DNA from: Tenacibaculum dicentrarchi
GTDB taxonomy: Bacteria; Bacteroidota; Bacteroidia; Flavobacteriales; Flavobacteriaceae
DNA: 64,000 nt
Reading direction: 5' to 3'
Assembly: GCF_964036635.1 (NCBI RefSeq)
Contig: NZ_OZ038524.1
Location: 973,501 to 1,037,500 of the forward strand
In this document: piece after piece, positions 33,569-51,930 of the stretch
How positions within the stretch are numbered: the first letter of the stretch is position 1
How the letters are laid out: each line of letters begins with the position of its first letter
Made by a program: the position numbers and the translations under genes
Notes under the pieces: generated by a model
What the model was told of the DNA's origin: nothing
Seen by the model: only the letters and a program-made list of their open reading frames with translations
Databases searched by the model: none

Positions 33569-34627
33569 TTAATGAGTGTGATAATGAGCGTTAATATGAG
33601 TAATTACTTCGTTATTTTTAGTAAGTTCAATATTTTTACCAATAACAACTAAACTTGTTTTTCGTTCTTCATTATCACCCCAAAGTCTTTCAAAATAATA
33701 ATCGAAACGAGAACCTACACCTTGTAAAACCATACGCATTGGTTTATTAGGAATGTTTACAAAACCTTTAATTCTGTAAATTTCGTGGTCTTCAACAAGT
33801 TTTTTCAAGTCTTTAACCAATGCTTTAATATCAGAAGTTTCAGAATACTCTAATAAAACTGTTTTAATATCATCATTATGATGGTGGTGATTACCTGATT
33901 TATGGTGCTCTTCATGAATAGAATGACGATTCTCTAAATCATCTTCCGCAGAAGCTCCAACACCTAATAATAAGGCATTATCTAATTCACCATTTATAAC
34001 AGGAACAATTTTAGTATTTGGTCTTGCTTTATCGATAATTACTTTAGTAACTTCTTCAAATTTTTCATCATCAATTAAATCTCTTTTACTAACTAAAACT
34101 AAATCGGCACAAGATAATTGATCTAAAAATAATTCTTCAATAGGTGTTTCATGATCTAAAGAATCATCAGTTAAACGTTGTTTTTGTACACGTTCTCTAT
34201 CGCAGATTTCGCCAGTTGCAATTCCTACAGCATCAACTACAGTAATAACGGCATCAATAGTAATATGAGGCTTTAAGTCTGGCCAGTTTACGGCTTTTAC
34301 TAAAGGTTTAGGCATTGATAAACCTGATGTTTCAATAACAATATGGTCAATTTCATCTTTACGCTCTAGTAATTGTAACATCGATGGTAAAAATTCTTCT
34401 TGAACCGTACAACAGATACATCCGTTAGGTAATTGAATTAAGTTACAACCATCATCATCACATTCTGATGATGCAATTAATTGTCCATCTACATCAACTT
34501 CACCAAATTCATTGACTAAAACAGCGATGCGTTTTCCATTGGCATTTTTTAACATATTATGCACTAAGGTTGTTTTTCCTACTCCTAAAAATCCGGTTAC
34601 TATGGTAATTGGTATCTTTTTATTCAT
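33569..34627 (-). CDS. cobW: CobW-family GTP-dependent metallochaperone
   Basis: A COG0523 G3E GTPase; CobW supplies Co(II) for cobalamin synthesis in characterised bacteria. The 352-aa protein has Walker A GFLGVGKTTLVH (about 13-24), the metal-binding GCICCTVQEEF motif (CXCC, about 71), the ETSGLSMPKP switch, VVDAVG and SKRDLID (the G4-like motif). A His-rich stretch, EEHHKSGNHHHHNDD, lies near residue 240, and the CobW C-terminal domain is complete with HYHTH at the end. Setting among cobalamin genes supports cobalt rather than zinc delivery. Confidence 0.9.
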   Translation of the reverse strand: MNKKIPITIVTGFLGVGKTTLVHNMLKNANGKRIAVLVNEFGEVDVDGQLIASSECDDDGCNLIQLPNGCICCTVQEEFLPSMLQLLERKDEIDHIVIETSGLSMPKPLVKAVNWPDLKPHITIDAVITVVDAVGIATGEICDRERVQKQRLTDDSLDHETPIEELFLDQLSCADLVLVSKRDLIDDEKFEEVTKVIIDKARPNTKIVPVINGELDNALLLGVGASAEDDLENRHSIHEEHHKSGNHHHHNDDIKTVLLEYSETSDIKALVKDLKKLVEDHEIYRIKGFVNIPNKPMRMVLQGVGSRFDYYFERLWGDNEERKTSLVVIGKNIELTKNNEVITHINAHYHTH

Positions 34628-34662: not shown

Positions 34663-35253
34663 TTATTTAGTCGCTGCTTTCTTCTTTCTTTTGTATAAAA
34701 ATAGATTCCATTTTTCTTCAGCAACACCGTGTTTGTCCATTTCGGCTCTTGCCATTGTGAAAAATAAATCAGACATTCTGTTTACATAACTCATAATATA
34801 ATCGTGTACACATTCAGGATCTTCTTGCATTAAGGTAACTAATTGTCGTTCACCTCTTCTCATTTGTGTTCTACAAACGTGACAAAGTGCCGATATTTCA
34901 TTTCCTCCAGGCAATAAAAAATAATCAGAAGGAGAACTGATATTTTCTTCCATTTCATCCATCCAAACTTCACAGAAATCAGCACCATCTTTAGGTTCAG
35001 GATTTGGATTTATTTTTTTAGAATCTGACGGACGTGCTAAATGCGACATCATATTCATCATATCTTTTTGAATACGGTGTAAATTTGGTTGCCATTCGTG
35101 GTCGTTTCCTAATTTAGAACGCATCAATCCTATGGTAGAATTTACTTCGTCTAAAGTTCCGATACATTCAATTCTTGCTGAGTTTTTAAACTCTCTTTTT
35201 CCTCCAAAAACGCCAGTTGTACCTTTGTCTCCTTTTCTTGTGTAAATTTTCAT
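34663..35253 (-). CDS. Cob(I)yrinic acid a,c-diamide adenosyltransferase, PduO type
   Basis: Transfers the 5'-deoxyadenosyl group from ATP to Co(I) corrinoid. The 196-aa helical protein has the ATP-binding YTRKGDKGTTGVFGG N-terminus, RIECIGTLDEVNSTIGL, and the second conserved block CRTQMRRGERQLV. These define the PduO family, not CobA/BtuR (no P-loop). There is a modest insertion around residues 75-100. Its ATG overlaps the stop of cbiA by 4 bases, consistent with adenosylation directly after a,c-diamide formation. Confidence 0.92.
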   Translation of the reverse strand: MKIYTRKGDKGTTGVFGGKREFKNSARIECIGTLDEVNSTIGLMRSKLGNDHEWQPNLHRIQKDMMNMMSHLARPSDSKKINPNPEPKDGADFCEVWMDEMEENISSPSDYFLLPGGNEISALCHVCRTQMRRGERQLVTLMQEDPECVHDYIMSYVNRMSDLFFTMARAEMDKHGVAEEKWNLFLYKRKKKAATK

Positions 35254-36566
35254 ATAGTATTATTTATTTCGTTAATCAATTGTAAAAGTATTTCTGATGT
35301 ACCAAAATAATGATGCACATAAGAAGCCATTACTTTATTTTTTTTATAAATTTTAGTAGTAGTATTCCCATCTCTAGCATTTGTAATTGTTGCGTTTATA
35401 GGTATTTCAGTATCATTTATTAAGCTCGAATAATGAAATTCGTGTCCTTTAAAAATATGCTGGTTAATTTTAGAAATTCGATATCCTAAATGCAATTTTT
35501 TATGGGCAATTGTAGCATCAAAATCAAAAATACCTACCATTTTAAAAGCGGTATTATTTTCTGATATAATAGTTTTTCCTAAGTACATCATTCCGCCACA
35601 TTCTGCATAAATTTGCCCGTTATTTTCTGCGAATTTTTTAATACTAGCAAGCATTTTTGTGTTAGAAGATAATTCTTTTAAATACGATTCAGGATATCCT
35701 CCAGCAAAATATATAAAATCACAATCAGGAATTTCAACATCTTTTATAGGACTGAAAAATTCAACAGTTCCTAATGTTTCCATTGCTGAAATACTTTGAG
35801 GATACATAAAATTAAAAGCTTCATCTTTAGCTACTGCAAATTTTATTTTTTTAGCCTGAATTATTTTTTCTGATGAAACACTTACTTGTTTAATTTCTTT
35901 GGATGCTTTTAAAATAGCTTTCCAATCGACTGTTTTTTCTAGCTCATCAGCAATTTGATTGATAACAGAATCAAACTTTTCAATTTCTTGAATATTTAAA
36001 CCTAAATGCCTTGAAGGAATTTCAATATTTTTTAAGTTTGATAAATAACCAAAACACTGTACACCAATATCATTACAGGCTTCTTTTAACATGGTATAAT
36101 GTCTTTCAGAACTAACACGATTAAAAACAACGCCCATTATTTGAACTTCTTTATCAAAATTAACAAAACCTTGAATTAACGGTGCAACAGAATAAGCAAC
36201 CGCTTTGGCATCAATCACCATTAAAACGGGTGTTTTTAGCTTTTTAGCCATTTCGGCGGTACTACCTTTGTCTTTTTTTGCGCCATCAAATAAGCCCATA
36301 ACACCTTCTATGCAATTAATTTCTGCATCTTTTCTGTAAAAATGTAAGTTGTTATTTATGTCATTTTGAGGCATCATAAATAAATCTAAATTCACACCAA
36401 TTTTGTTACAAGCTAATTGATGAAATTTAGGATCGATATAATCAGGACCAACTTTAAAAGGTTGAATAGCGTAATTTTTTCGTTTGAATAAACGTAATAA
36501 TCCTAAGGTAAGCGTTGTTTTACCTGCATTACTACTTGGCGCTGATATGATGAGTTGTTTGGTCAA
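35250..36566 (-). CDS. cbiA: Cobyrinate a,c-diamide synthase
   Basis: Glutamine- and ATP-dependent amidation of the a and c carboxylates of (hydrogeno)cobyrinate. The 438-aa protein has a dethiobiotin-synthetase-like N-terminal half with P-loop SAPSSNAGKTTLTLGLL. The C-terminal glutaminase-like half has the nucleophilic Cys in YAECGGMMYLGK and a late MASYVHHYFG. The start is TTG at 36564-36566: TGA closes the frame upstream, and the conserved KQLIISAPSS follows immediately. Whether it acts on the cobalt or metal-free substrate (CbiA versus CobB) cannot be told from sequence and depends on which chelatase is used. Confidence 0.92.
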   Translation of the reverse strand: MTKQLIISAPSSNAGKTTLTLGLLRLFKRKNYAIQPFKVGPDYIDPKFHQLACNKIGVNLDLFMMPQNDINNNLHFYRKDAEINCIEGVMGLFDGAKKDKGSTAEMAKKLKTPVLMVIDAKAVAYSVAPLIQGFVNFDKEVQIMGVVFNRVSSERHYTMLKEACNDIGVQCFGYLSNLKNIEIPSRHLGLNIQEIEKFDSVINQIADELEKTVDWKAILKASKEIKQVSVSSEKIIQAKKIKFAVAKDEAFNFMYPQSISAMETLGTVEFFSPIKDVEIPDCDFIYFAGGYPESYLKELSSNTKMLASIKKFAENNGQIYAECGGMMYLGKTIISENNTAFKMVGIFDFDATIAHKKLHLGYRISKINQHIFKGHEFHYSSLINDTEIPINATITNARDGNTTTKIYKKNKVMASYVHHYFGTSEILLQLINEINNTI

Positions 36567-38233: not shown

Positions 38234-38949
38234 TATAAAGCCGAAATACTATTATACAACCATACAAATCCGATAATTGCCGATGCAACTCCCGCAACGC
38301 CGTTCATCCATTTAAAAATAGCTAAATTTCGTTCTAAAAATCGACTCATAACATAAATTAAAACATAACTATAAACCCCCATTGCTACAATAATTCCTAC
38401 CGATTCTACGGCAAGTATAAGAATTGCTTCACCTATGGTAGCACTACTTAAAACTAGTGCCGATGTTAAAGCACCACCTGTACCCGCTAAACCGTGTAAC
38501 ATTCCAATCCAAAAGGATTTATTCATTGGATTTACTGCGATTTCTTCGCCTTTTGTACCGTGTAAATGTATTGGATTAGAAAGATCGTGTTCGTGAGCTT
38601 CAATTTTTTTATGGTTTTTAACCATCTCATTAATTTGATGATTTCTTTTGATGGCTACAATTCCTAGCCAAATCATGATAGGACCAACGGCAAGTTCGGC
38701 ATAAAAAGAAATATCATGTATAAATAAAGTCGCCATACTTTTAAAAAGCAGTGCAAATCCTCCGAAAAGTAATAAAGTTACAGAGTGCCCAAATGCCCAT
38801 TGTGATGCTTTAAAAACAGTTTTAAAGCTCACTTTTTGTTTATTGATAGCATTTTCGGTAGCTAAAACTGAAACTGCGGTTACATGATCAGGCTCAAAAG
38901 AATGTAAAATTCCTGCCATTAAAGGTCTAACTAATGATACTATTGTCAT
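38233..38949 (-). CDS. Nickel/cobalt membrane transporter (NiCoT/UreH-like)
   Basis: A 238-aa inner-membrane protein with about six hydrophobic helices. The NiCoT signature H-x4-D-H is present at HSFEPDH (about residues 17-23). Further histidines occur at FGHSVTLL and in the His-rich loop EAHEHDLSNPIHLHG, and GMLHGLAGTGGAL follows. The setting among corrin genes and downstream of a B12 riboswitch indicates cobalt uptake. It overlaps cbiD by 23 bases and the chelatase motor by one. Confidence 0.87.
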   Translation of the reverse strand: MTIVSLVRPLMAGILHSFEPDHVTAVSVLATENAINKQKVSFKTVFKASQWAFGHSVTLLLFGGFALLFKSMATLFIHDISFYAELAVGPIMIWLGIVAIKRNHQINEMVKNHKKIEAHEHDLSNPIHLHGTKGEEIAVNPMNKSFWIGMLHGLAGTGGALTSALVLSSATIGEAILILAVESVGIIVAMGVYSYVLIYVMSRFLERNLAIFKWMNGVAGVASAIIGFVWLYNSISAL

Positions 38950-40030
38950 TTTTAATGTATTTAATAAGTGTTCCGTTTTTATGAATTAGGTAAATATTTA
39001 AATCAACCTCTTTAATTTTTGTATGGGTGTGTTTGTAACAATGGGCTAATAATAATTGAAAAAATGGCGAATTTTGGTCAAATTCAAACAACTCAATTAA
39101 CCGCCCAGCCATGTTTAATTCTTTAATTTTATCAGCATCGTAAAAACCAACTTCTTGCGCTAATTTTACTACGAAATCTTTATTCCAGCTAGACACACAA
39201 CTATGTGTATCAGTAATTCCGCCAGCTAATTTTACTGCTTTTCCTAGCATAATTCCAATACTAACTTTTTTTATAGCACATTGATTTACTTTCGTAAGTG
39301 TTTCACCAATCCAGTTTCCATAATGAATAAAAGCATATTCGGGTAAATGACTAAAATTATCAGATAAAAACTTTTCACTTCTTGCGCCTGAATTAATTAC
39401 TAATTCGGAAATATTATTTGCAATAGCAACATCAATTCCTTGCTCAATACTTGCAATATATGATGATGATGAATATGGTTTTACAATTCCTGTTGTTCCT
39501 AAAATAGATAATCCATTCATAATTCCAACACGTTCATTAAGCGTACGCTTGGCTAATTTTTTTCCATCAGTCACATAAATTGTAACTGATACGCCACATT
39601 CTAAATCATAATCATGTAACAATTTTTGAATTGCATTGCTTATCATTTTTCGAGGAACAGGATTAATTGCAGGTTCACCAATTGCTAATTCTAAACCTTT
39701 AAGCGTAACAGTTCCAACGCCTTCTCCCGCAAAAAACTGAATACCTTTTTGCTCCGTTAATTTTAAAACACAACCAATTTCAGCACCATTTGTAACATCA
39801 GGGTCATCACCAGCATCTTTAATAACCGAACATTTAGCTGTATTTTGAGTAAATTCACAATGATGAATAGGAATTTCAATTATTTTATCAATAGGTAAAT
39901 GAACTTTTACGGTAGCATTTTTTTTCTGATAAATAATAGCCATCAACCCAGATTTTGCAGCAGCTGTTGCACAAGTTCCTGTTGTAAACCCATCTTGTAA
40001 AGGGCCTTTTGGTACTTTTCTTAAACTCAT
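38927..40030 (-). CDS. cbiD: Cobalt-precorrin-5B C1-methyltransferase
   Basis: Methylates C-1 in the early-cobalt (anaerobic-type) pathway. The 367-aa protein shows the family start LQDGFTTGTCATAAAKSGL, DAGDDPDVTNGAEI, NPVPRKMI and the GITDTHSCVSSWN segment. CbiD is not homologous to the aerobic C1 enzyme CobF, so its presence argues for a cobalt-containing substrate at this stage. ATG overlaps the cobK stop (ATGA). Confidence 0.94.
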   Translation of the reverse strand: MSLRKVPKGPLQDGFTTGTCATAAAKSGLMAIIYQKKNATVKVHLPIDKIIEIPIHHCEFTQNTAKCSVIKDAGDDPDVTNGAEIGCVLKLTEQKGIQFFAGEGVGTVTLKGLELAIGEPAINPVPRKMISNAIQKLLHDYDLECGVSVTIYVTDGKKLAKRTLNERVGIMNGLSILGTTGIVKPYSSSSYIASIEQGIDVAIANNISELVINSGARSEKFLSDNFSHLPEYAFIHYGNWIGETLTKVNQCAIKKVSIGIMLGKAVKLAGGITDTHSCVSSWNKDFVVKLAQEVGFYDADKIKELNMAGRLIELFEFDQNSPFFQLLLAHCYKHTHTKIKEVDLNIYLIHKNGTLIKYIKNDNSIIS

Positions 40031-40797
40031 ATTATTGAATTTTTTTGAGGTGATAAAATAGATAATGCCGTAATTAATTGATTTTCATTAAAAACTTGCG
40101 TAAAATATTTTGGAATTTCAGGTTGTTTGATAATTATTATTTGTGTACTTGTTTTTAAAGCAGCTTCAATTTTAGTGTGTAAAAAACCACTGTTGCCTGT
40201 TTCTTTAGTTAAAATGATATCAATTTTATTTTCTTTGATAATCGAAATTTCTTTTTCTAAATCAGAAGAAGGAAATTCTAAAATTAATTGATTTTTAGGG
40301 AAATTACTTTCAGTTGCAATTGCTAAAGATTCGGGTCTGTTTAAAATTCTAAAATAAGTGAGGTTTTTTAGCCACCAAGGTTTTAACCTTTTGATAGATT
40401 GTACCCCCGTTAAAGCTAATAATATTTGATTTTCTTTTAAAATTGCTAAGGCATTATCGTAATAATTAACATAAGACACTAATACGTGTTTTGTTTGAGG
40501 TAGCAATTTTCTAGCAAAACGTATTACAGGGATTTGTAAATTTTTAGCCACCTTAGCAATGGTTTTGTGCAAAATTTCTGCAAAAGGATGCGAGGCATTT
40601 ATAATAATTTGAATTTTATTTTTGATTAGATAATTTTCTAAATCTATTTCATTTAACGCACCATATCTGTAACTCGCAATTTCTGTTTCATTAAAAGAGA
40701 TACTTGTTTTTGTTGAATAAACAAAAGGCATCAGTTTTTCTTGAAGCAAGGTTGCTACTTTTTTACCTTCTGTTGTTCCTCCAAATACAAGTATCAT
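40027..40797 (-). CDS. cobK: Precorrin-6A/cobalt-precorrin-6A reductase
   Basis: NAD(P)H-dependent reduction of the macrocycle at the 6A to 6B step. The 256-aa protein begins MILVFGGTTEGKKVATLLQ, a phosphate-binding loop typical of CobK/CbiJ. It continues with ASHPFAEILHKTIAK and IPVIRFAR, then ALTGVQSIKRLKPW and LTKETGNSGF near the end. It lies 32 bases after the cbiG-cobM fusion and overlaps cbiD. Whether it should be called CbiJ depends on the metal state of the substrate. Confidence 0.92.
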   Translation of the reverse strand: MILVFGGTTEGKKVATLLQEKLMPFVYSTKTSISFNETEIASYRYGALNEIDLENYLIKNKIQIIINASHPFAEILHKTIAKVAKNLQIPVIRFARKLLPQTKHVLVSYVNYYDNALAILKENQILLALTGVQSIKRLKPWWLKNLTYFRILNRPESLAIATESNFPKNQLILEFPSSDLEKEISIIKENKIDIILTKETGNSGFLHTKIEAALKTSTQIIIIKQPEIPKYFTQVFNENQLITALSILSPQKNSII

Positions 40798-40829: not shown

Positions 40830-42671
40830 TTAGTCAGTAACTACAAATTTCTTATTAGTTCTAAAAATATGTTTCCATTTTGGGTTGTATAATTGTGATC
40901 TGTTTTTACGTGCTCCAATAGCACTACCAACAACAATTAATACAGTTCTTGTTTTTTTACTATTTTTTACAATTTCGGCAAGGTTTTCTAATTTTCCTTG
41001 ATAAATTTCTTCATCTTTCCAAGTAATTCTGTACATCACAGCAACTGGAGTATCGGCATCAAAATGTTCTAATAACTGCGCTTGTACTTTTGATGCAATT
41101 CCTGCACTTAAAAAGATGCACATTGTTGAATTAGTAGCAGCAAATGCAGAAATACTTTCTTTTGATGGCATTGGTGTTTTTCCTTCTCCACGAGTTAATA
41201 CAATAGATTGTACTACTTCAGGAATGGTAAATTCTGATTTTAAAACCGCTGCGGCAGCACTAAATGAAGAAATTCCAGGAACAATAAAATACTCCATATT
41301 TAGCTCATCAAAAATGGTCATTTGTTCTTGAATTGCTCCGTATAATGAAGGGTCGCCACATTGTAAACGCACAATGGAATTTCCTTTTTTATAATGTTCT
41401 TGCATTAATGAAACTTGCTCTTCTAAAGTCATCATTGCAGAATTTCGAACCACAGCAGAAGGTTTACACCAATTTGTCATTTCTTCAGGAATTAAACTTC
41501 CTGCATATAAAACACAGTCGGCTGCTTCTAAATATTCCTTTCCTTTTACGGTAATTAATGATGAATCACCAGGACCTGCACCAATAATAGCAACAGCAGT
41601 TTTACGAACAGCTTTTGCATCTAAAGAAACAGAAAAAGTAAATTTTTCATTATTTTCAATATGAATTTTTTGCTTTTCAACTAATAGCTCATTATTTTCT
41701 GATAATAACATTGCACAAGATTCTGAAACTCCTGCAACGCCAATTTTAGATTGTACCATTTCACTAGGATTTGGTATTGAGATCTTATTTATTTCATCCG
41801 AAGTAAACGTGCTAAAAGGAATATTATTGACTTCACTAAAATCTAAATACGCTTGCTGATTTGCTTTAATATCAATAGAACCAAAATTTTTGATTGCTGA
41901 AAAATGGAATCCTTCGTTAGCTAATTTAGTTTTGAATGTTTCTTGAAAAACAGTGAAATTTAATTCTTTCGAACATCCCGAACCAACTGAAAGCACTTTT
42001 GGAATTAAAAATAAACTAGGAATTTTTGCTTCGTATATTTTGTAACTAACAGTAATAAATAATTCAAATTGCGTATAATCAATATTTTTTTCATCATAAA
42101 AAACAGTTACAAAATTAGGTGCTGTTTTTTCTAAATGCTGTGTTCCTTTATCTTTAATATCTAAAAGTAAAGCGGTTGGTTTATTGTTTACAAACAACGC
42201 CATTGTTTTAGTTATTGATAAAGAACTTTCTGTTTGCCAGTCAAATTGATTTCCAAGAGTATCTAAAGCCCAAATTTCTTGTACATCGCTAGATGTTGAT
42301 ATTACAGAATTTGCGCCTAAAACAGCCGAAACTTTTAAAGCAAAATTATTAGCACCTCCTTTATGCCCGCTTAATACTGATTGTACATTTAAACCTAAAT
42401 CATCCACAGAAATAACCGCAGGGTCGGTGTTTTTATCTTGAATATATGGTGCAATTAAACGTACACAAATACCTAATGCGGTTACAAAACAAATACCATC
42501 TAATTTTGAAAAATTATCGGTTAAATAGTCTGAAATAGATGCAATAGTCGAAACATTCCCGTTACTAGATTGTAAGGTTGTTATGACTAATGATTTTGGA
42601 AATTCTTTCTGAATTATAAGGGCTTTTTCTAATCCTTTTTCAGTAACTGCTATAATGGCTATTTTTTTCAT
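40830..42671 (-). CDS. cbiG-cobM: CbiG-CobM fusion: cobalt-precorrin-5A hydrolase and precorrin-4 C11-methyltransferase
   Basis: A 613-aa two-enzyme protein. Residues 1-335 are CbiG, which opens the lactone ring and releases acetaldehyde: FVTALGICVRLIAPY, DDLGLNVQSVLSGHKGGAN, and a C-terminal CbiG domain from VGSGCSKE to GVAGVSESCA. Residues 358-613 are the tetrapyrrole methylase CobM/CbiF: IIGAGPGDSSLITVKG, DCVLYAGSLIPEE and RLQCGDPSLYGAI. The methylase acts immediately before CbiG in the pathway, so the fusion channels consecutive steps. It directly abuts cobL (no gap). Confidence 0.93.
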   Translation of the reverse strand: MKKIAIIAVTEKGLEKALIIQKEFPKSLVITTLQSSNGNVSTIASISDYLTDNFSKLDGICFVTALGICVRLIAPYIQDKNTDPAVISVDDLGLNVQSVLSGHKGGANNFALKVSAVLGANSVISTSSDVQEIWALDTLGNQFDWQTESSLSITKTMALFVNNKPTALLLDIKDKGTQHLEKTAPNFVTVFYDEKNIDYTQFELFITVSYKIYEAKIPSLFLIPKVLSVGSGCSKELNFTVFQETFKTKLANEGFHFSAIKNFGSIDIKANQQAYLDFSEVNNIPFSTFTSDEINKISIPNPSEMVQSKIGVAGVSESCAMLLSENNELLVEKQKIHIENNEKFTFSVSLDAKAVRKTAVAIIGAGPGDSSLITVKGKEYLEAADCVLYAGSLIPEEMTNWCKPSAVVRNSAMMTLEEQVSLMQEHYKKGNSIVRLQCGDPSLYGAIQEQMTIFDELNMEYFIVPGISSFSAAAAVLKSEFTIPEVVQSIVLTRGEGKTPMPSKESISAFAATNSTMCIFLSAGIASKVQAQLLEHFDADTPVAVMYRITWKDEEIYQGKLENLAEIVKNSKKTRTVLIVVGSAIGARKNRSQLYNPKWKHIFRTNKKFVVTD

Positions 42672-43871
42672 TTATATTTTTTCTGCTGAATGAATGCTAA
42701 TTTTGTTATGCTCGTTTACTTGAATAACACTTGTATTTATCGTGTAGTTTAGTGTAGTGAGCTCTTTTATAAATATGTTGGTACTGTTTTCTTTTACAGC
42801 GTTTGTAACAAACCTTGCTTTCGGGTTTAATTGATGAATTAGATGAATTAATTCGTTTAATCGACCTCCGTGTCCGCCAATAAATACGACATCTGGAATT
42901 GGAAATTCTTGTAAGTTGAGGTTAAAAAAATCATCAATAATAATAGCGATGCCAGGAGTAGAGAAGCGTTCTGTATTTTGCTGAATTATATCTTCGCATA
43001 CAGTTCGTTTTTCAAAAGCGACTATTTTTAAATGTGGAAAATGTTGTTTTGCTTCAATAGCAACCGAACCTGTACAAGCTCCAATATCCCAAAAAACAGT
43101 TTTATTTTGTAATTGTAAAGCGTTTATTGTACTCAATCGGATGGGCATTTTAGTAATCATATTTGCCCGATTAGGTAAAGGAATAAAAGCTGTATCAGCA
43201 ATACCAAATGTTTTATCTTTATTTGTAATTTGTTTTAATAAAACACAATTTAAATTGTTATGTAATTTTTTAGTACAAGTTGCTAAATCAAGCGTTTCAA
43301 TATGTTCTTCATTTCCATCTAAAGCCTCGCCAATGGTTATTGAATAATTATCAAAACCATATTTTAACAAACGTTTTGCAATTTCACAAGGTGTTTTTTT
43401 AGCATCTGTTAATACGCCAATTAATTCATTTTGATTGATTAAAGCTTCATCTAAAGCTGACCAATCTCTACCGTGAACAGATATCGATTTTAAAGCATTA
43501 TAATTTGTTTGTGTTTTATGACACAATAATTGAATGCTGTTAAAATAAGGTGTTGCTTTTAATTTTGCGTTTGGTAATAAACGTTGTAACGTATTTCCGA
43601 AACCATAGAAAAAAGGATCTCCAGAGGTGAAAACTACAATAGTCGTATCAATTTTTTTATATTGATTGATAAGAAAATCCATTTTACCTGAAATTTCAAT
43701 CCAAGTATGGTTTTTAGGTAAAAATGACCTTACCAATTCATAATGACGTTTTCCGCCAGAAAAAACGCTTGCTTTTTGAATTAATTCCAAGACATCATCA
43801 TTGAATTTTGGCACAGGATGATTGCTGATTCCAATTAAATGAAAGTCGATATGTTTTTGAATTTTATTCAT
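42672..43871 (-). CDS. cobL: Precorrin-6B C5,C15-methyltransferase (decarboxylating), CbiE-CbiT fusion
   Basis: Adds methyls at C-5 and C-15 and decarboxylates the C-12 side chain. In the 399-aa protein residues 1-200 form the CbiE tetrapyrrole methylase (HLIGISNHPVPKF, FTSGDPFFYGFG, SVHGRDWSALDEAL). Residues ~215-399 form the Rossmann CbiT domain, with SAM motif FWDIGACTGSVAIEA and VFIGGHGGRLNELI. This fused architecture equals CobL of the aerobic pathway. It is sandwiched without gaps between bluB and cbiG-cobM. Confidence 0.94.
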   Translation of the reverse strand: MNKIQKHIDFHLIGISNHPVPKFNDDVLELIQKASVFSGGKRHYELVRSFLPKNHTWIEISGKMDFLINQYKKIDTTIVVFTSGDPFFYGFGNTLQRLLPNAKLKATPYFNSIQLLCHKTQTNYNALKSISVHGRDWSALDEALINQNELIGVLTDAKKTPCEIAKRLLKYGFDNYSITIGEALDGNEEHIETLDLATCTKKLHNNLNCVLLKQITNKDKTFGIADTAFIPLPNRANMITKMPIRLSTINALQLQNKTVFWDIGACTGSVAIEAKQHFPHLKIVAFEKRTVCEDIIQQNTERFSTPGIAIIIDDFFNLNLQEFPIPDVVFIGGHGGRLNELIHLIHQLNPKARFVTNAVKENSTNIFIKELTTLNYTINTSVIQVNEHNKISIHSAEKI

Positions 43872-44513
43872 TTATTGATAAGATTCTTTAATAACAACAT
43901 CGTTAATGTTCTTACGTTTTTCCCATTTTAAACGTTCTAATTCTGGGTTCTCATAAAATTTATCTACATGACCTAAACACAAATAACCAATTAATTGTCT
44001 GTCATTAGGCGCATTTAAAATAGTTTTCACTTTGTTCGCATTTAAAATACTAACCCAACCTAAACCCACATTTAACGCCCTTGCCATCAACCACATATTT
44101 TGAATGGCACAAACCACCGAATAAACACCTGCTTCTTTCATAGAAGTTTGCCCTAAAACAGGATGTTCACTTGGTTTGTAAAAAACCGCAATATTTAATG
44201 CCGATTCTACAATACCCTCTAATTTTAATTGTGTGTAAGCATCTGCTTTTTTACCTTCAAAAAGAGTTTTAGCTTTTTCGTTTTCTTCAAAAAAACTGTC
44301 TTTAATTTTATTTCTGATTTTTAAATCTTTAATAACCACAAATTCCCACGGTTGAGAAAATCCAACAGATGGCGCATTTACTCCAGCAAACAGAATTTTA
44401 TCTAAATGTTCTTTAGATATAGGCGTATTTAAAAACCGATTTCCTCTAACATCTCTACGTGCAAGTATTATTTGCTCAAGGGTTTCAATATTTTCTGGAG
44501 TAAATTTGTTCAT
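43872..44513 (-). CDS. bluB: 5,6-Dimethylbenzimidazole synthase
   Basis: Oxygen-dependent fragmentation of FMNH2 to the lower ligand DMB. The 213-aa nitroreductase-fold protein shows the BluB signatures ARRDVRGNRFLNTPI, VNAPSVGFSQPWEF, a lid region after FEENEKAKTLFEGKK, and NVGLGWVSI. These distinguish it from ordinary nitroreductases. It implies that the organism makes B12 with DMB and that oxygen is available during growth. It lies 3 bases after cobJ-cobH. Confidence 0.93.
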   Translation of the reverse strand: MNKFTPENIETLEQIILARRDVRGNRFLNTPISKEHLDKILFAGVNAPSVGFSQPWEFVVIKDLKIRNKIKDSFFEENEKAKTLFEGKKADAYTQLKLEGIVESALNIAVFYKPSEHPVLGQTSMKEAGVYSVVCAIQNMWLMARALNVGLGWVSILNANKVKTILNAPNDRQLIGYLCLGHVDKFYENPELERLKWEKRKNINDVVIKESYQ

Positions 44514-44516
44514 TAT

Positions 44517-45893
44517 TTATGATTTAAAATAAATTGAAGCTTCAGGTAATGTAAAAGCAGCATTAACAATAGCGGCAGCAACATTACTTCCGCCTCTGTT
44601 TCCTTCTATAACTACCCAATTTGTGTTTTTTGTTTGCGACAATTGTTCTTTAGCTTCTAAAACATTTACAAAACCAACAGGCACACCAACAACTCCAACA
44701 GGTTTAAAATTGTCGTTATCTCTTATTTGATCTACAATTTCGAATAAAGCAGTTGGAGCATTTCCAACAACATATAAAGCGTTTGGATATTTTTCAATAG
44801 CTTTTCTAATTCCTGCTTGAGAACGTGTAATATTTTCTGAAGTTGCTAATAATTGCGCATCTTCATCATTTAATAAACAATGTATTTGATTTCCATATTC
44901 TTTAGTGAAAGCCTTTGTAATTCCTGCTTTAACCATAGTAACATCTGTTACAATTTCACCACCATTTTTTAAATGTTCATGCCAGTTTTCAATCGCTTCT
45001 GGAGTTGCTGAATAATGATTAAAATCTTCTAAAATTCCTGTGGTATGAATAACTCTTGTTATTGCCCATTTATCGGCAACAGTAAAAGGTAAATCTTGAA
45101 TATGTTCGGTAACAATTCTAAAACTTTCTTGTTGAATTTCTTTTCCTGTATGTGGTTTTCGATTTAAGTATCCTCTAGGAGTAACTAAATAATCTTTAAA
45201 ACGATATGTTTGCGAATTTCCAATCATCACCAAACAAAACATATCTACATCTTCAGGATTAAATTCGCCTAAAGTGGTAATTTTACATTCTTCTTCAGGG
45301 CGAGTTACATGCCTAATAATTGCAACAGGAGTAGAAGGAGAGCGTTTTTCTAAAAATATTTTTTGTAATCGACCTAACTGCCAATGTCTTTTTTTACTTT
45401 TCGGATTGTATAAACTCGTTACAAAATCGCCCATTGCGGCAGCCTTAATTCTTTGTTCTATTTTGTTCCAAGGAGTCATTAAATCAGATAATGAAATACA
45501 ACAAAAATCGTGACCTAACGGCGCACCTAATTTACTTCCAGCAGCTAAAAAAGCAGAAACACCAGGTAAGGTTTCTAACTCAATATCATCATGATTTTCT
45601 TTAGATACAACTTCGTAAACAATCGCAGCCATTGCATAAATACTGGCATCACCAGAACCAATAACTACTACATATTTATCTTCGTTTGCTTTTTCAACAG
45701 CTTTGTGAGCTCTTGCTTCTTCTTTTCCTAGAGGCATCGAAATTAATTCGGCATCTTCTTTAAATAACGATTTTCCAAATTGAAAATAATAGTCGTACCC
45801 AATAACAACATCCGCTTTTTGCAACGCATTTTTAACAACGGGTAACATATAATCTATATCTCCAGGACCTAATCCCGCAACGGTTATTTTCAT
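44517..45893 (-). CDS. cobJ-cobH: CobJ-CobH fusion: precorrin-3B C17-methyltransferase and precorrin-8X methylmutase
   Basis: A 458-aa two-domain protein. Residues 1-240 are CobJ/CbiH, the ring-contraction methylase: ITVAGLGPGDIDYML, VIGSGDASIYAMAAIVYE, LPGVSAFLAAGSKLGAPLG. Residues ~255-458 are the CobH/CbiC methylmutase: the catalytic region at about residue 290 (INTTG equivalent near VIHTTGILEDF), TDVTMVKAGI, NAPTALFEI and GVVGVPVGFVNVLEAKEQL. The domains catalyse non-consecutive steps, unlike the cbiG-cobM fusion. Stop and start overlap with neighbours by 4 bases upstream of cobI. Confidence 0.92.
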   Translation of the reverse strand: MKITVAGLGPGDIDYMLPVVKNALQKADVVIGYDYYFQFGKSLFKEDAELISMPLGKEEARAHKAVEKANEDKYVVVIGSGDASIYAMAAIVYEVVSKENHDDIELETLPGVSAFLAAGSKLGAPLGHDFCCISLSDLMTPWNKIEQRIKAAAMGDFVTSLYNPKSKKRHWQLGRLQKIFLEKRSPSTPVAIIRHVTRPEEECKITTLGEFNPEDVDMFCLVMIGNSQTYRFKDYLVTPRGYLNRKPHTGKEIQQESFRIVTEHIQDLPFTVADKWAITRVIHTTGILEDFNHYSATPEAIENWHEHLKNGGEIVTDVTMVKAGITKAFTKEYGNQIHCLLNDEDAQLLATSENITRSQAGIRKAIEKYPNALYVVGNAPTALFEIVDQIRDNDNFKPVGVVGVPVGFVNVLEAKEQLSQTKNTNWVVIEGNRGGSNVAAAIVNAAFTLPEASIYFKS

Positions 45894-46600
45894 TTTTTTA
45901 TTTTTTTAATAATGATAAGAGAAAAATAAGGAGTTTCTCTTTTACTAGCTATATCCCAGTTATTAGTTATAAATTGTTGGTCAGTTCCTAGGCGTTCGGC
46001 ATAGGTGACGCTATGTTTTTGAGTGTCAATTACAGTGGTAATTATATCAATAACCGATATAATTTTCATTAAAACTATGGTGTCAAAATTATCAATAGCT
46101 TCTTGTAATTCTTCTTTACTCTGGATGCGAGGAATAACGGTTACTTTTTCATTTTGCAAACACAAAGGAATTTGACTTTCTGATGATAAATGCAAGTAAG
46201 AAGTAATTCCTGGAATTAAATCTATTTTTAATTGATGAGCTTTAATTTTTTCTAATAGATAAGAAAAAGAGCTGTAGGTACTAATATCACCTTCGCTTAC
46301 AATAGCTATGTATAAACCATTTTTATAATCGTTTAAAATTTGTTGAAAAGTAGTTTCGTAAACCTCTTTAGCCTGAATTCTTTCTAAATCCATCTTTAGA
46401 TAAAATCCGACCAATTTATTAGTCTCTAAATTGTAATTATTTAAAATAGTACGTGAATAACTCACTTTTCGACCATCTTTAAATAATGAACCAGGATAAT
46501 ATATTTTATCAGCTTGCTGTAAGGTTTTTAATCCTTTTAAGGTAATTAAATCCGCATCACCAGTACCTAACGAAACACCGTGTATTGTACCCGTTATCAT
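45890..46600 (-). CDS. cobI: Precorrin-2 C20-methyltransferase
   Basis: A SAM-dependent methylase converting (cobalt-)precorrin-2 to 3A. The 236-aa protein begins with the motif GTIHGVSLGTGDADLITLKG. The family segments ADKIYYPGSLFKDG, IAIVSEGDISTYSSFSYL and LIPGITSYLHLSS follow, and it is complete to the C-terminus. CobI and CbiL cannot be separated by sequence alone. ATGA overlaps on both sides tie it to cbiX and cobJ-cobH. Confidence 0.92.
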   Translation of the reverse strand: MITGTIHGVSLGTGDADLITLKGLKTLQQADKIYYPGSLFKDGRKVSYSRTILNNYNLETNKLVGFYLKMDLERIQAKEVYETTFQQILNDYKNGLYIAIVSEGDISTYSSFSYLLEKIKAHQLKIDLIPGITSYLHLSSESQIPLCLQNEKVTVIPRIQSKEELQEAIDNFDTIVLMKIISVIDIITTVIDTQKHSVTYAERLGTDQQFITNNWDIASKRETPYFSLIIIKKIKK

Positions 46601-47533: not shown

Positions 47534-49087
47534 TTAATTTATTGGTTTTACACCTATTAAAAATACTACAGGCATTTGTAGTGGTTGTTTTTTTATATCG
47601 TTTTCTATTTCTCCTAATGTTGATGAAAGTAATACTTCATTATTTCTTGATACATTAGAAACAGCATTGATAGGAATTGTAGAATCTCCACAAATGCTTA
47701 TCAATTTAGGAATTAATTTATCTAAACTTTTTAAGCCCATATACAGCGCTAATGTATTTCCTGCTTTTAGCATTTCAGCAATTCCTTTCAATTGTTCGGT
47801 TGAATAATCTGCTGTATGTGCGGTACAAATTAAAACGGCGTTTGATTTTCTTCTTTCTGTAATAGGTATGTCAACTGCGCTAGCGGCTGCTAATACAGCT
47901 GAAATCCCTGGGACAACTGTAAAAGGAAGTTTATGTTTCTTTAAAAAACGAACCTCTTCGGCAGCTCTTCCATAAATATATGGGTCGCCAGATTTTATGC
48001 GAACGACTTTATCACCTTGTTCACAATGTTTTTTCATCAATAAATTGATGTTATCTTGACGACTTTGTTGGTCTTCTTTATCGCCAAATTTTCTACCGAC
48101 ATAAATACGTTCCGCTTGTGTATTGATGTTTAATATTTCATCAGAAATTAAATTATCATGTAAAATAATTTCCGCAGTTTCAATCGCCTCAAAAGCTTTT
48201 AAAGTTAGTAGATTTTTATTTCCAGGACCTGCGCCAACAATCGAAATTTCAGGTAAATGTTCTCTTGTAAAAATCCATTCAGGATTAGCAAATTGATACG
48301 TGAAATTTAATAACGATTTTGATTTTGAATTATCAATTATTTTAAAACGTTCTTCTGATGTTTTAGCTGTTTCAAAAATAGGAGCAGGCATATTTAATTT
48401 GATAGCTGCATTTTCATAATATTCTTTTCTTTTCGGATGTATATCTGCACAACCATTAATAATTTCACCAAAACAATTTTGATTTAAAATAGTATCAATT
48501 AAACTAATAACATCTTTCTGATGAATTAAATTAACAGGTACATTAGGGTTTTTTAATTGCTTTTTATTGGCAAGAAATCTTCCAGGATGACGTTTCGCAC
48601 CGATTAAACCCGCTAAACGTAAAATAGTTAAATTATCACCAAAATGTTGTTGTAATAATTCTTCGGCTTTAATTAATGCGTGTCCAGATGCTTTTTCAGG
48701 AACACATTTTTCAGCTTCATTTATCAGATTATTATTGTTTTGATATACCGAAGTAGAACTCACAAAAATAACTTTTGTTGATTTAGGAGTTTGTTCTATA
48801 ATTTGCGCTATTTGCTTCGGATGAATTGTTTCAATATTATCAATTCTTTTAGGCGGAAAATTAATAATAAGGATGTTTGTATCTGTAATAAAAGATTCCC
48901 AATCACCAATAATATTATCGGCTTCAAGTCTTATTCTGCAAGTATGAAACGAATATTTAGCAAGTGTTTTTAGTTTTTCTACAGATGAGGTACTTCCATT
49001 AACAGTATATCCATTTTTTTGTAACTGTAAAGCAAGCGGTAAACCTAACCAGCCCAAACCTAATATTGAAACATGTTGTTTATTCAT
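47534..49087 (-). CDS. Fusion of an SDR-type NAD(P)-binding protein with uroporphyrinogen-III C-methyltransferase
   Basis: A 517-aa fusion. Residues 1-275 form an atypical short-chain dehydrogenase/epimerase domain (YeeZ-like): cofactor loop GLGWLGLPLA (10-19), VIFVSSTSVYQNN (107-119), and His136/Lys140 where a YxxxK would stand, so the usual catalytic tyrosine is missing. Residues 280-517 are SUMT (CobA): ISIVGAGPGNKNLLTLKA, IKSGDPYIYGRA and TVVPGISAVLAAASAVDIP. SUMT makes precorrin-2 from uroporphyrinogen III. The N-terminal domain has no proven role. In siroheme synthases a different Rossmann domain fused to SUMT dehydrogenates precorrin-2 to sirohydrochlorin, the CbiX substrate, so a similar role is an attractive inference. 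Confidence 0.85.
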   Translation of the reverse strand: MNKQHVSILGLGWLGLPLALQLQKNGYTVNGSTSSVEKLKTLAKYSFHTCRIRLEADNIIGDWESFITDTNILIINFPPKRIDNIETIHPKQIAQIIEQTPKSTKVIFVSSTSVYQNNNNLINEAEKCVPEKASGHALIKAEELLQQHFGDNLTILRLAGLIGAKRHPGRFLANKKQLKNPNVPVNLIHQKDVISLIDTILNQNCFGEIINGCADIHPKRKEYYENAAIKLNMPAPIFETAKTSEERFKIIDNSKSKSLLNFTYQFANPEWIFTREHLPEISIVGAGPGNKNLLTLKAFEAIETAEIILHDNLISDEILNINTQAERIYVGRKFGDKEDQQSRQDNINLLMKKHCEQGDKVVRIKSGDPYIYGRAAEEVRFLKKHKLPFTVVPGISAVLAAASAVDIPITERRKSNAVLICTAHTADYSTEQLKGIAEMLKAGNTLALYMGLKSLDKLIPKLISICGDSTIPINAVSNVSRNNEVLLSSTLGEIENDIKKQPLQMPVVFLIGVKPIN

Positions 49088-49089
49088 AA

Positions 49090-49890
49090 TTATTTTAAAT
49101 GTAAGTTGGTGTTTTGTAACTGAATTTTAGTGCAATATAACCAAGCTTTATTTTCTATGGAATCGAAAGTTATTTTTCCTAAAATTTCACCAAATTTATT
49201 TTTGAAACGAATACCTGTGAGTGCTGTTTCTTTTTGATGAAAATATTCTGTACTAGAAATTTTTGATTGTTGTAATTCCTTATTTTCTTTAGGAACTGCA
49301 GCAATTGTTAACTTTATGATTTCCGTTTTAGTTTTTAATTCAAGCGTATGTGTATCTGAATAATTTACTGTAATTATTTTATCAAAAGAAATAATATTTT
49401 TATCAGCCATAGCAAGTGTTACACCTTTTGGATTTTCTGATAAATATAAGAAAAGAGGATATAAATATTGATCAGAGCTAAAACCTTTAGTAATAAAACA
49501 ATTTCCTAATTCAGCATCATTTTTTAACTCGAAAGGTTTTGGTTTTATAGGCGCTCTTTCGTTATTAGAAACTAGTTTATTCCATTCTTTTTTGTATAAT
49601 AAATCATCTTCATTAAAAGGCTCATTATTAATATGAGCCTTTATAATTGGAGTAATTTTTTCAGGTGTTAATTCTTTATACCAAAACTCGCCAGGATACA
49701 CAATACAAGTTGGAGCATCTTCACATCTACCGTTACATCTTGTTTTAATTGTATGCGTTTTATCCCAAAGATTATTGTTTCGTAAGTAAGCTCTTGCCGT
49801 TCTTGTTACTTGTTCGCTTCCTGCTTTTTGACAAGAACCTCCGTCGCAAAAGAAAAATGTATGCGTTGTATTAGCTATATCTTTTCCCAT
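49090..49890 (-). CDS. Thioredoxin-like [2Fe-2S] ferredoxin with unknown C-terminal domain
   Basis: The N-terminal ~100 residues are a thioredoxin-fold [2Fe-2S] ferredoxin: Cys15 and Cys20 in FFCDGGSCQKAG, Cys52 and Cys56 in TRCNGRCEDAPTC, with an extra Cys62 and IVYPGEFWYKEL. The remaining ~160 residues are not recognised; they look like an alpha/beta domain with a DUF2470-like flavour (GVTLAMADKN, ALTGIRFKNKFGEILGKI), a weak impression only. It is the second gene of the riboswitch operon, next to the SDR-SUMT fusion and CbiX. A redox role in corrin ring synthesis is inferred from context, not shown. Confidence 0.8.
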   Translation of the reverse strand: MGKDIANTTHTFFFCDGGSCQKAGSEQVTRTARAYLRNNNLWDKTHTIKTRCNGRCEDAPTCIVYPGEFWYKELTPEKITPIIKAHINNEPFNEDDLLYKKEWNKLVSNNERAPIKPKPFELKNDAELGNCFITKGFSSDQYLYPLFLYLSENPKGVTLAMADKNIISFDKIITVNYSDTHTLELKTKTEIIKLTIAAVPKENKELQQSKISSTEYFHQKETALTGIRFKNKFGEILGKITFDSIENKAWLYCTKIQLQNTNLHLK

Positions 49891-49893
49891 AAT

Positions 49894-51930
49894 TTAAAAG
49901 AAATAAGTGAAACTTACTTTTGATAAAAAAGGAGTTCCTGGTGTAAAATGAATATCATCAATAGGTTGTAATTCGTTTTTTAATTGTGACGAATCATAAA
50001 AAAAAGCTTCTCTCCATGCTGTATTAAAAATATTTTCTACGGATAAACCTATTTGATATTTTGGTCTTATGTAGTTGATAACAAAATCTGCAATAAAATA
50101 ACTGTCAGCAATTACAGATTCGTCTTTAATTAAAGGACGTTCTCCTAAAAAACGATAACGTAACGATGTGTTAATTCCATTTTTTAAACGCAAAGTAGCG
50201 CCACCAGTTGAAGTAAAACGAGGCGCACTAGGAATTTTATTTTCAGTTTTCGGAGTATCTAATAAAGTTCCAAAACTATAATTTAAATCGGTATCGAACC
50301 AAAAATAAGGCAATGGTTGATATCTAAAAGATGCTTCACTACCAATTCGTTTCGATCTTCCTTTATTTTCAAATTCAAATCCATCAGGACTAAAAACAAA
50401 TTCAGCATCACTTTGTAAATAAAAAGTAGCAATGTTACCAACAAAGTTTTTTCCTATTTTAAATTCTGTACCAATATCGTATCCGATAGCTTTAGGTAAC
50501 GGATTAATTTCTTTGTTTTTTATAGCTGCGTTTGCGTAGTTTGAATGAAAACCAGAACTTGCTTTTGCATATAATTGTAAGTTTTTAGTAGCATCATAAA
50601 ACAAACTAAATTTCGGACTTATTCTAATAGAATTTGTTTTCCCTTGTTGAGAAACTGGTACTATTTCGGTTACATTAAAATCGAAATAATCAGCTCTAAG
50701 ACCTGCTAAAGCAGTTAGCTTAGGAGTTATTTGAATTCTTTCTTTTAAAAATAAAGCAACGTTTGTTTCTTTAATATCAAATTCATTTATAGGATTTGAC
50801 AAGGTACGTCCAATAGCATTATTTAAACCAATATTGTTATTGTTACGTTGAATTTCCCAACCAAAAGTAGTGGTGCTATTTGGTATTTGAAATATGTTTT
50901 TAGTTGAAATATTTCCTTTATAAGTATATGTTTTACGATTTTCTTGTTGATGAATCATATCACCATTAACAGGATTATTTTGATAAAAAGAAAAATTAGA
51001 AAACAAATTGTACTTATTAGAAACATAATAAAACTGATTTGTAAGCTGTGTTTTATCAGAAATATCAGAAGATAATTGCATGTTAAAATGCATTCTTTCA
51101 GTATCGCCACCTTCTTTATCGTCAATAGCTCCAAATCTATCTATTAATCCACTTTTAACAGCTCTTAAAGGTATTTGACCCGAAGCATTCCAATTACTAT
51201 TAAATGTAGAAATTGATGTTCTTAATTTATGATTATCAGAAAATGCAACGGTATATTTTGTAAATGTATTTAATCTTTTAAGTCTTTGTTCACTTTCAAA
51301 AAAACTGTCATTATAAGTTCCTTCAATAGCAATGTAAGCACTTTCTTCATTCTTAGTTAAAGAATTGTTTTTATCAATAAGTGATACCATTGCCAAAGCT
51401 CTAGCAAAATCGTATTGACCATATTCTAACTTTACAAAATTACGATGTACTTTATCTTTTGATGAAAATTTAGCAGCTCCAGAAACGGCAAAATTTCCTA
51501 ATGAAGTTTCATGAGGTCCTTTATAATAATCGGCAGCTTGAACAGTTTCAGGAATTAAAAAATGTAAATCTGCATAGCCTTGTCCGTGTGCGTGAGAACT
51601 TAAATTAACGCCAATATCATCAACTAAAACAGCAAAATCGGTTCCATGGTCGTTATCAAAACCTCTTAAAAATATTTGTTCGGCTTTTCCGCCACCAGCA
51701 TGTTGCGCTATAAATAAACCTGGTACTGTTTTTAAAAAATCGTGAGCGCTATTTATTGGTCGTAATTGCAACGAAATTTTAGAAACCTTATGAGTACCTA
51801 ATTTTTTTTCGTTTTTAGAGTTGATAATTATTTCAGAAAGTTCTATTTCTGAGTTTTTTTTGTTGTTTTGTGAGAATACAGATAATGAAAAACACATTAT
51901 CCATAGACTGCATAAAATCAATTTTTGCAT
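49894..51930 (-). CDS. TonB-dependent outer-membrane receptor, B12-riboswitch controlled
   Basis: A 678-aa protein with signal peptide (about 1-20, ending VFSQ). The plug domain (30-150) contains HDFLKTVPGLFIAQHAGGG, IFLRGFDNDHGTDFAVLVDDI and a long 22-strand barrel ending in an aromatic residue (VSFTYFF). It lacks the carboxypeptidase-like N-terminal extension of SusC proteins. Location directly behind a cobalamin riboswitch suggests uptake of a corrinoid or of cobalt; BtuB is a functional analogue, not a sequence-based call. No BtuFCD genes are in the window. It is the first gene of the 18-gene operon, and the ferredoxin gene begins 3 bases later. Confidence 0.88.
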   Translation of the reverse strand: MQKLILCSLWIMCFSLSVFSQNNKKNSEIELSEIIINSKNEKKLGTHKVSKISLQLRPINSAHDFLKTVPGLFIAQHAGGGKAEQIFLRGFDNDHGTDFAVLVDDIGVNLSSHAHGQGYADLHFLIPETVQAADYYKGPHETSLGNFAVSGAAKFSSKDKVHRNFVKLEYGQYDFARALAMVSLIDKNNSLTKNEESAYIAIEGTYNDSFFESEQRLKRLNTFTKYTVAFSDNHKLRTSISTFNSNWNASGQIPLRAVKSGLIDRFGAIDDKEGGDTERMHFNMQLSSDISDKTQLTNQFYYVSNKYNLFSNFSFYQNNPVNGDMIHQQENRKTYTYKGNISTKNIFQIPNSTTTFGWEIQRNNNNIGLNNAIGRTLSNPINEFDIKETNVALFLKERIQITPKLTALAGLRADYFDFNVTEIVPVSQQGKTNSIRISPKFSLFYDATKNLQLYAKASSGFHSNYANAAIKNKEINPLPKAIGYDIGTEFKIGKNFVGNIATFYLQSDAEFVFSPDGFEFENKGRSKRIGSEASFRYQPLPYFWFDTDLNYSFGTLLDTPKTENKIPSAPRFTSTGGATLRLKNGINTSLRYRFLGERPLIKDESVIADSYFIADFVINYIRPKYQIGLSVENIFNTAWREAFFYDSSQLKNELQPIDDIHFTPGTPFLSKVSFTYFF

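Follow-up and report, generated by a model that had tools for sequence, protein, structure and literature searches.

The SUMT of the B12 locus of Tenacibaculum dicentrarchi is joined to a YeeZ-family extended SDR domain, and this fusion was confirmed as real. The SDR belongs to a B12-locus gene set across the Bacteroidota and is under purifying selection. Judged from its sequence and gene neighbours, it may be a precorrin-2 dehydrogenase that is unrelated to CysG-N, Met8 and SirC and serves only the cobalt branch of the pathway, a reading to which a probability of about one half is given. The DNA analysed (the window) is a stretch of 64,000 nucleotides from a genome assembled as a single contig of 2.81 Mb. 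From it and from related genomes we infer the substrate, cofactor and reaction, together with the division of labour with the canonical CysG-N.

The SDR-SUMT fusion protein

Residues 1-275 have the extended-SDR fold with an N-terminal glycine loop (GLGWLG) and are homologous to E. coli YeeZ over their full length (E 4e-45, 32% identity over 267 aa; profile probability 100%). The YeeZ-like domain of the preliminary description is a complete extended SDR. In the loop, G10, G12, W13, L14 and G15 are invariant in 42 B12-locus SDRs. The SUMT that had also been described is a predicted methyltransferase, the C-terminal half passing NCBI's curated TIGR01469 cut-off (Table 1). The classical SDR motif YxxxK and its register were positioned by eye. 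No tyrosine stands in that register in 30 rows read of 89 aligned sequences, nor in 21 rows read of the 42-sequence B12-locus alignment, so that B12-locus SDRs and general paralogs are alike in this respect, in agreement with the earlier remark that the tyrosine is missing. The letters YxxxK occur in one locus (L102) but five places out of register, and E. coli YeeZ too has Ser at the Tyr position.

The SDR domain alone gave no match to TIGR01470 or PF13241 in searches of Pfam (to E 1) and NCBIfam (to E 0.001). Alignment with three CysG-N sequences using hhalign gave a probability of 0.2%, and Met8-type chains were absent from the 50 structural matches listed in each of two comparisons. Two structural-genomics proteins of unknown function, 3gpi and 3ius, show ~20% identity and carry no function in their entry names. 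A structure model spanning both domains (mean pLDDT 82.1, pTM 0.67) has four ten-residue blocks below pLDDT 60 in the SUMT half and is too weak for contacts between the domains to be read from it.

Table 1. Features of the fusion gene and the surrounding B12 locus. Positions are those of the window.
Feature	Position	Strand	Remark
SDR-SUMT fusion gene, 517 aa	47534..49087	-	
YeeZ-family extended-SDR domain, residues 1-275	48263..49087	-	
GLGWLG dinucleotide-binding loop, residues 10-15	49043..49060	-	
SUMT domain, residues 280-512	47552..48250	-	TIGR01469 221.2 bits, cut-off 185
CbiX, 310 aa	46597..47529	-	start 4 bases past the fusion's stop codon
CbiL	45890..46600	-	TIGR01467 180.5 bits, cut-off 163.25
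CbiH-CbiC fusion	44517..45893	-	
BluB	43872..44513	-	
CbiE-CbiT fusion	42672..43871	-	
CbiG-CbiF fusion	40830..42671	-	
CbiJ	40027..40797	-	
CbiD	38927..40030	-	
CbiA-like gene	35250..36566	-	
CobW-like gene	33569..34627	-	named by eye
CobN-like gene	29281..33027	-	56% to a PF02514 protein
2Fe-2S ferredoxin-like protein	49090..49890	-	stop codon 2 bases ahead of the fusion's start
TonB-dependent receptor-like gene	49894..51930	-	named by eye; heads the run
Cobalamin riboswitch RF00174	52007..52211	-	105.2 bits; upstream of the fusion-bearing run
Second cobalamin riboswitch RF00174	54769..54973	-	108.9 bits

The locus holds the anaerobic (early-cobalt) set CbiX, CbiL, CbiH, CbiF, CbiG, CbiD, CbiJ, CbiT, CbiE and CbiC, with three more pathway fusions: CbiH-CbiC, CbiE-CbiT and CbiG-CbiF. 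Each of the two cobalamin riboswitches sits upstream of a TonB-receptor-like gene. The CbiX protein contains two CbiX stretches, and its C-terminal motif NMNCQ[LM]C is conserved in the 10 sequences aligned; the protein is 100% identical to the Tenacibaculum dicentrarchi CbiX of locus L075. Genes for early and late cobalt chelation share this neighbourhood; given the CobN-, CobW- and CbiA-like genes near CbiX, the chelation route may be hybrid or dual, and a late cobalt insertion that bypasses sirohydrochlorin is possible.

Gene order around cbiX in related genomes

Relatives of the window's CbiX were found at E<=1e-10 in 10 of the 149 genomes of the family set, and in all ten an SDR lies just upstream of cbiX with at most SUMT between them. 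The SDR is fused to SUMT in six of these genomes, separate from it but adjacent in G079 and G122, and directly before CbiX in G033 and G072. At E<=1e-15, a class-level survey with the same CbiX had matches in 3 genomes out of 396, too few to use. A wider set of named loci was taken from a CbiX alignment search (the best 80 of 363), with 'upstream' defined as a distance of <1.3 kb. The placing of the SDR beside cbiX, first noticed at this one locus, recurs there: in 65 of the 80 loci an SDR lies upstream, 28 times fused to SUMT, 29 times near a separate SUMT and eight times with no SUMT between SDR and cbiX. One of the last, L147 (genome G033), has a SUMT ~18 kb away on the same contig. Lineages with the gene set include Flavobacteriaceae, Crocinitomicaceae, Flammeovirgaceae, Cyclobacteriaceae, Cesiribacteraceae and Chitinophagaceae.

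Of the remaining loci, two have the SDR at another place in the locus and 13 gave no SDR there; two of these 13 are contig edges, and a third, L106, has its SDR elsewhere on the contig, next to CbiL and to a gene that looks PduO-like by eye. The B12 loci of L087 and L107 lack SDR and SUMT alike, with CysG-N and a SUMT found elsewhere. Loss of the SDR does not always go with loss of SUMT: L123 and L148, which lack the SDR, retain a SUMT within the B12 locus or near it.

Several single cases were also observed. A Crocinitomicaceae MAG (G554) has two fusion-bearing B12 loci, L092 and L129. Genome G138 has, besides the SDR of its B12 locus, another of the B12 type that stands alone at a different site (L043, 6400-7251). 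In G061 (L015, L051) the frame of the fusion matches only from query residue 15, and translation from its first ATG would give 402 aa; it seems to be truncated or disrupted at the 5' end. In Xanthovirga aplysinae (L151, 8214-9482), SUMT forms a fusion with the B12-locus AAA_28 ATPase; the locus has no SDR, and the genome gave two CysG-N matches. Fusion taken alone was rejected as weak proof of function, since the SUMT-ATPase fusion of L151 indicates that a SUMT fusion may reflect only neighbourhood.

The closeness to SUMT (fused or near in 57 of the 80 loci) would also be expected of an SDR that binds NAD(P)(H) without catalysis and serves as a regulator or scaffold of SUMT. The analogy is MAT2B, the regulatory SDR-fold subunit of methionine adenosyltransferase, chains of which (9qpp, 2ydx, 4ktt) are among the structural matches of the SDR domain; the lack of a catalytic Tyr in register would fit such a role. 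It is nevertheless unlikely, given that the SDR stays beside CbiX in the eight loci without SUMT between them and is located away from CbiX in L101, L146 and L106.

Two loci of the Cytophagales type, L161 and L172, have the SDR next to a PduO-like gene (named by eye) and CbiL. These neighbours would suit an SDR serving another redox point, for instance as a source of reducing equivalents for ring contraction (cobalt-factor III to cobalt-precorrin-4) or for corrinoid adenosylation. Ring contraction from cobalt-factor III requires a reductant, and the CbiH-CbiC protein of the window has CbiH and CbiC domains only. This role appears somewhat unlikely because a flavin-less SDR is a poor one-electron donor, and because the commonest neighbours of the SDR are SUMT and CbiX rather than CbiH or PduO. 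Those two partners catalyse the steps immediately before and after the proposed dehydrogenation, which favours a precorrin-2 dehydrogenase.

CysG-N in this genome and in its relatives

The preliminary description had argued from necessity that the locus offers no other recognisable precorrin-2 dehydrogenase, and had named a separate one elsewhere in the genome as the finding that would count against its proposal. A search of the whole genome found a canonical CysG-N at C1:1133172 (TIGR01470 114.9 bits, cut-off 62.3), so the argument from necessity was rejected; as far as sequence can tell, a canonical enzyme for precorrin-2 oxidation exists in this cell. The gene follows a second SUMT and a siroheme-reductase-like gene within a sulfate-assimilation cluster, cysH-cysD-cysN...cysE-cysM. 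Its product keeps the residues equivalent to D104 and P106 of CysG, in a loop that a passage of PMC7018833 ties to bifunctional dehydrogenase-chelatase enzymes.

TIGR01470 was found in 76 of the 149 family genomes (75 above cut-off), in 42 of a further 48 genomes searched and in all of another 22, one of them only by a broken match below cut-off. A strict complementarity of SDR and CysG-N was rejected. In a table of 75 genomes, 59 had both, six the SDR without CysG-N, nine CysG-N without the SDR and one neither (Fisher p = 1); the two usually coexist. In favour of the dehydrogenase reading, nine of the ten SDR-lacking genomes have CysG-N. This table includes seven rows from the family set (L086=G138, L102=G072, L108=G003, L109=G079, L112=G019, L119=G122, L147=G033), counts L124 as CysG-N-positive on the broken below-cut-off match and L106 as SDR-positive, and leaves out L129 (from the MAG of L092), L082, L118 and, for a contig edge at or near CbiX, L085 and L135.

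The six SDR-bearing cbiX genomes that are negative for CysG-N (L092, L097, L098, L101, L119 and L147) comprise five MAGs and one isolate, Aureivirga CE67 (L147, 99% complete). In two of the six, G033 and G122, the only matches to PF13241 had E values of 6.7e-6 or weaker and lay mostly in ORFs of >400 aa. Two further CysG-N-negative genomes, L088 (a 2.0-Mb MAG) and L135 (near a contig edge), gave general paralogs only and no B12-type SDR. NIR_SIR is absent from seven of these eight CysG-N-negative genomes, L101 being the exception, and hence from five of the six with the SDR; it is present in all four CysG-N-positive genomes tested. In six of the seven loci read, CysG-N lies no more than one gene from a siroheme reductase; the seventh, L185, which is Xanthovirga's second copy, borders the end of its contig. 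The presence of CysG-N thus seems to follow the use of siroheme, and that of the SDR the synthesis of B12.

These results bear in two ways on the suggestion that the SDR domain is an analogous replacement of the dehydrogenase. Gene order and the genomes in which CysG-N was not found are best fitted by it, whereas the co-occurrence statistics lend it no support. Against a precorrin-2 dehydrogenase stand the genome's own CysG-N, the CobN-type chelatase gene in the neighbourhood and the fact that, of the six genomes with the SDR but negative for CysG-N, all but one are MAGs. A genome without CysG-N also need not have a substitute, since precorrin-2 can be oxidised non-enzymatically according to a part of PMC7018833.

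Family tree, paralogs and selection

A database search gave 282 relatives of the SDR domain at E<=1e-10. PF00590 was present in 97 of the 120 listed, a fused share inflated by a length rule that omitted stand-alone proteins of less than ~284 aa. The listed relatives with a source name were mostly called SUMT or, when PF00590 was absent, 'SDR family oxidoreductase'. General paralogs outside B12 loci were collected from 20 further loci, in 15 of which a large ORF precedes the paralog; one of these ORFs is membrane-peptidase-like by eye and four have no Pfam match.

In the tree, the general paralogs fall on one side of a 100/100 branch. When 14 rows were added, support for the branch that splits paralogs from all B12-locus forms fell to 86/71, with the Chitinophaga-Cytophagales type nearer the paralogs, and the tree does not establish that the SDR entered B12 loci only once. 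The main B12 set (64 sequences, plus L043) is set apart at 100/98. All 28 fused forms lie in one clade of 33 rows (100/100), which also includes the stand-alone L043, L100, L110 and L152 and the broken L094.

In B12-locus SDRs (n=42), 37 columns are invariant. A comparison of 67 B12-locus SDRs with the paralogs (21 rows, 20 of them different) gave 20 positions that are at least 90% conserved in the former and not in the latter, including R81, K132, R220, N253, K255, S256, K257 and P269. Three of these were weakened as marks of the B12 type: paralogs carry Arg one place on from R81, YeeZ has R220 too, and K255, invariant in the 42, is Lys in 57% of paralogs. K257 is likewise invariant in the 42, and no residue exceeds 14% there in the paralogs. 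A substrate that carries eight carboxylates would be well served by additional basic residues; CysG holds the eight carboxylates via basic and polar residues, according to a section of PMC7018833.

Of the most conserved positions, 29 are common to the paralogs and the B12 set. Together with the position of E. coli YeeZ and the widespread paralogs outside B12 loci, and with the 13 loci in which the SDR was not found, this would agree with a metabolite-repair or epimerase-like enzyme of the YeeZ family that restores an intermediate after damage or isomerisation without being an obligatory step. Such an enzyme is quite unlikely here: the SDR is kept just upstream of CbiX in 65 of the 80 loci, and the B12 set has conserved residues that the paralogs do not keep.

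In five comparisons, dN/dS was 0.10-0.14 for the SDR half and 0.10-0.13 for the SUMT half, with dS near or above 0.7 in three of the five. An inert passenger of a chance gene fusion, which the preliminary description had allowed for and of which the SUMT fusion in L151 would be a second chance-looking example, is most improbable. The value of ~0.1 in all five comparisons equals that of the SUMT half, and the domain persists in relatives as a separate gene (39 of the 80 loci, L094 among them as an apparently broken fusion).

A proposed precorrin-2 dehydrogenase for the cobalt branch

If the SDR is the precorrin-2 dehydrogenase of the cobalt branch, SUMT would yield unstable precorrin-2, and the SDR, whose Rossmann site would hold NAD(P)+, would remove a hydride from it to give sirohydrochlorin. 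CbiX, the product of the next gene of the operon, would receive this and insert cobalt. Lack of the catalytic Tyr would be immaterial if no nearby base is needed, as in SirC, whose reaction is reported in part of PMC7018833 to run without one. The canonical CysG-N beside sulfite reductase would serve siroheme and may double as ferrochelatase, committing material to siroheme; with a dehydrogenase of its own next to CbiX, the cobalt branch would stay separate from it. Next after this reading, held at about one half, follow action at another redox step and then a regulatory SDR.

Fusion around an unstable intermediate has precedent. Precorrin-2 is listed, in a portion of PMC4921024, among the unstable metabolites common to fused enzymes, and in a Tenacibaculum MAG (G575; L187, 4845-6224) the SUMT of the siroheme cluster is fused to CysG-N in a protein of 459 aa, SUMT first. 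E. coli CysG (b3368) likewise carries an N-terminal Rossmann NAD-binding module and a SUMT module in one chain, between which precorrin-2 would pass. The N-terminal module of the present fusion differs in being a YeeZ-family extended SDR with no detectable homology to CysG-N, and its operon partner is CbiX, not a siroheme reductase. The proposed step is also that of SirC and Met8; SirC is a monofunctional dehydrogenase and SirC, Met8p and CysG are compared as one structural group in the part of PMC7018833 consulted, but the candidate SDR belongs to another sequence family. E. coli YeeZ (b2016) aligns with the whole SDR domain, yet its gene is flanked by yeeY and yoeB/yefM, and it has Cys at the position of K257 and Arg at that of K255. 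The YeeZ family gives no chemistry, since the annotation of its E. coli member goes no further than putative epimerase. Dehydrogenases named in an excerpt of one review are SirC, Met8p and CysG (PMC7242693). Among the papers listed in literature searches that covered mainly open-access journal articles, no SDR-type or non-orthologous precorrin-2 dehydrogenase was found.

Precorrin-2 dehydrogenation is the branch step to siroheme and anaerobic B12. Tentatively, SDR-type dehydrogenases without a catalytic Tyr could form a class of their own in the cobalt branch of the Bacteroidota, fused to SUMT in one clade as a mirror image of CysG. They would make B12 synthesis independent of the siroheme enzymes, and lineages that have given up siroheme could still make B12. 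De novo B12 producers make up only 0.6% of Bacteroidota genomes according to a passage of a review (PMC8123684). If the proposal is true, B12 reconstructions for the Bacteroidota would have a gap closed by another, unrelated enzyme for the step, rules that demand CysG, SirC or Met8 would miss genomes like Aureivirga CE67, and the YeeZ family would gain a testable function.
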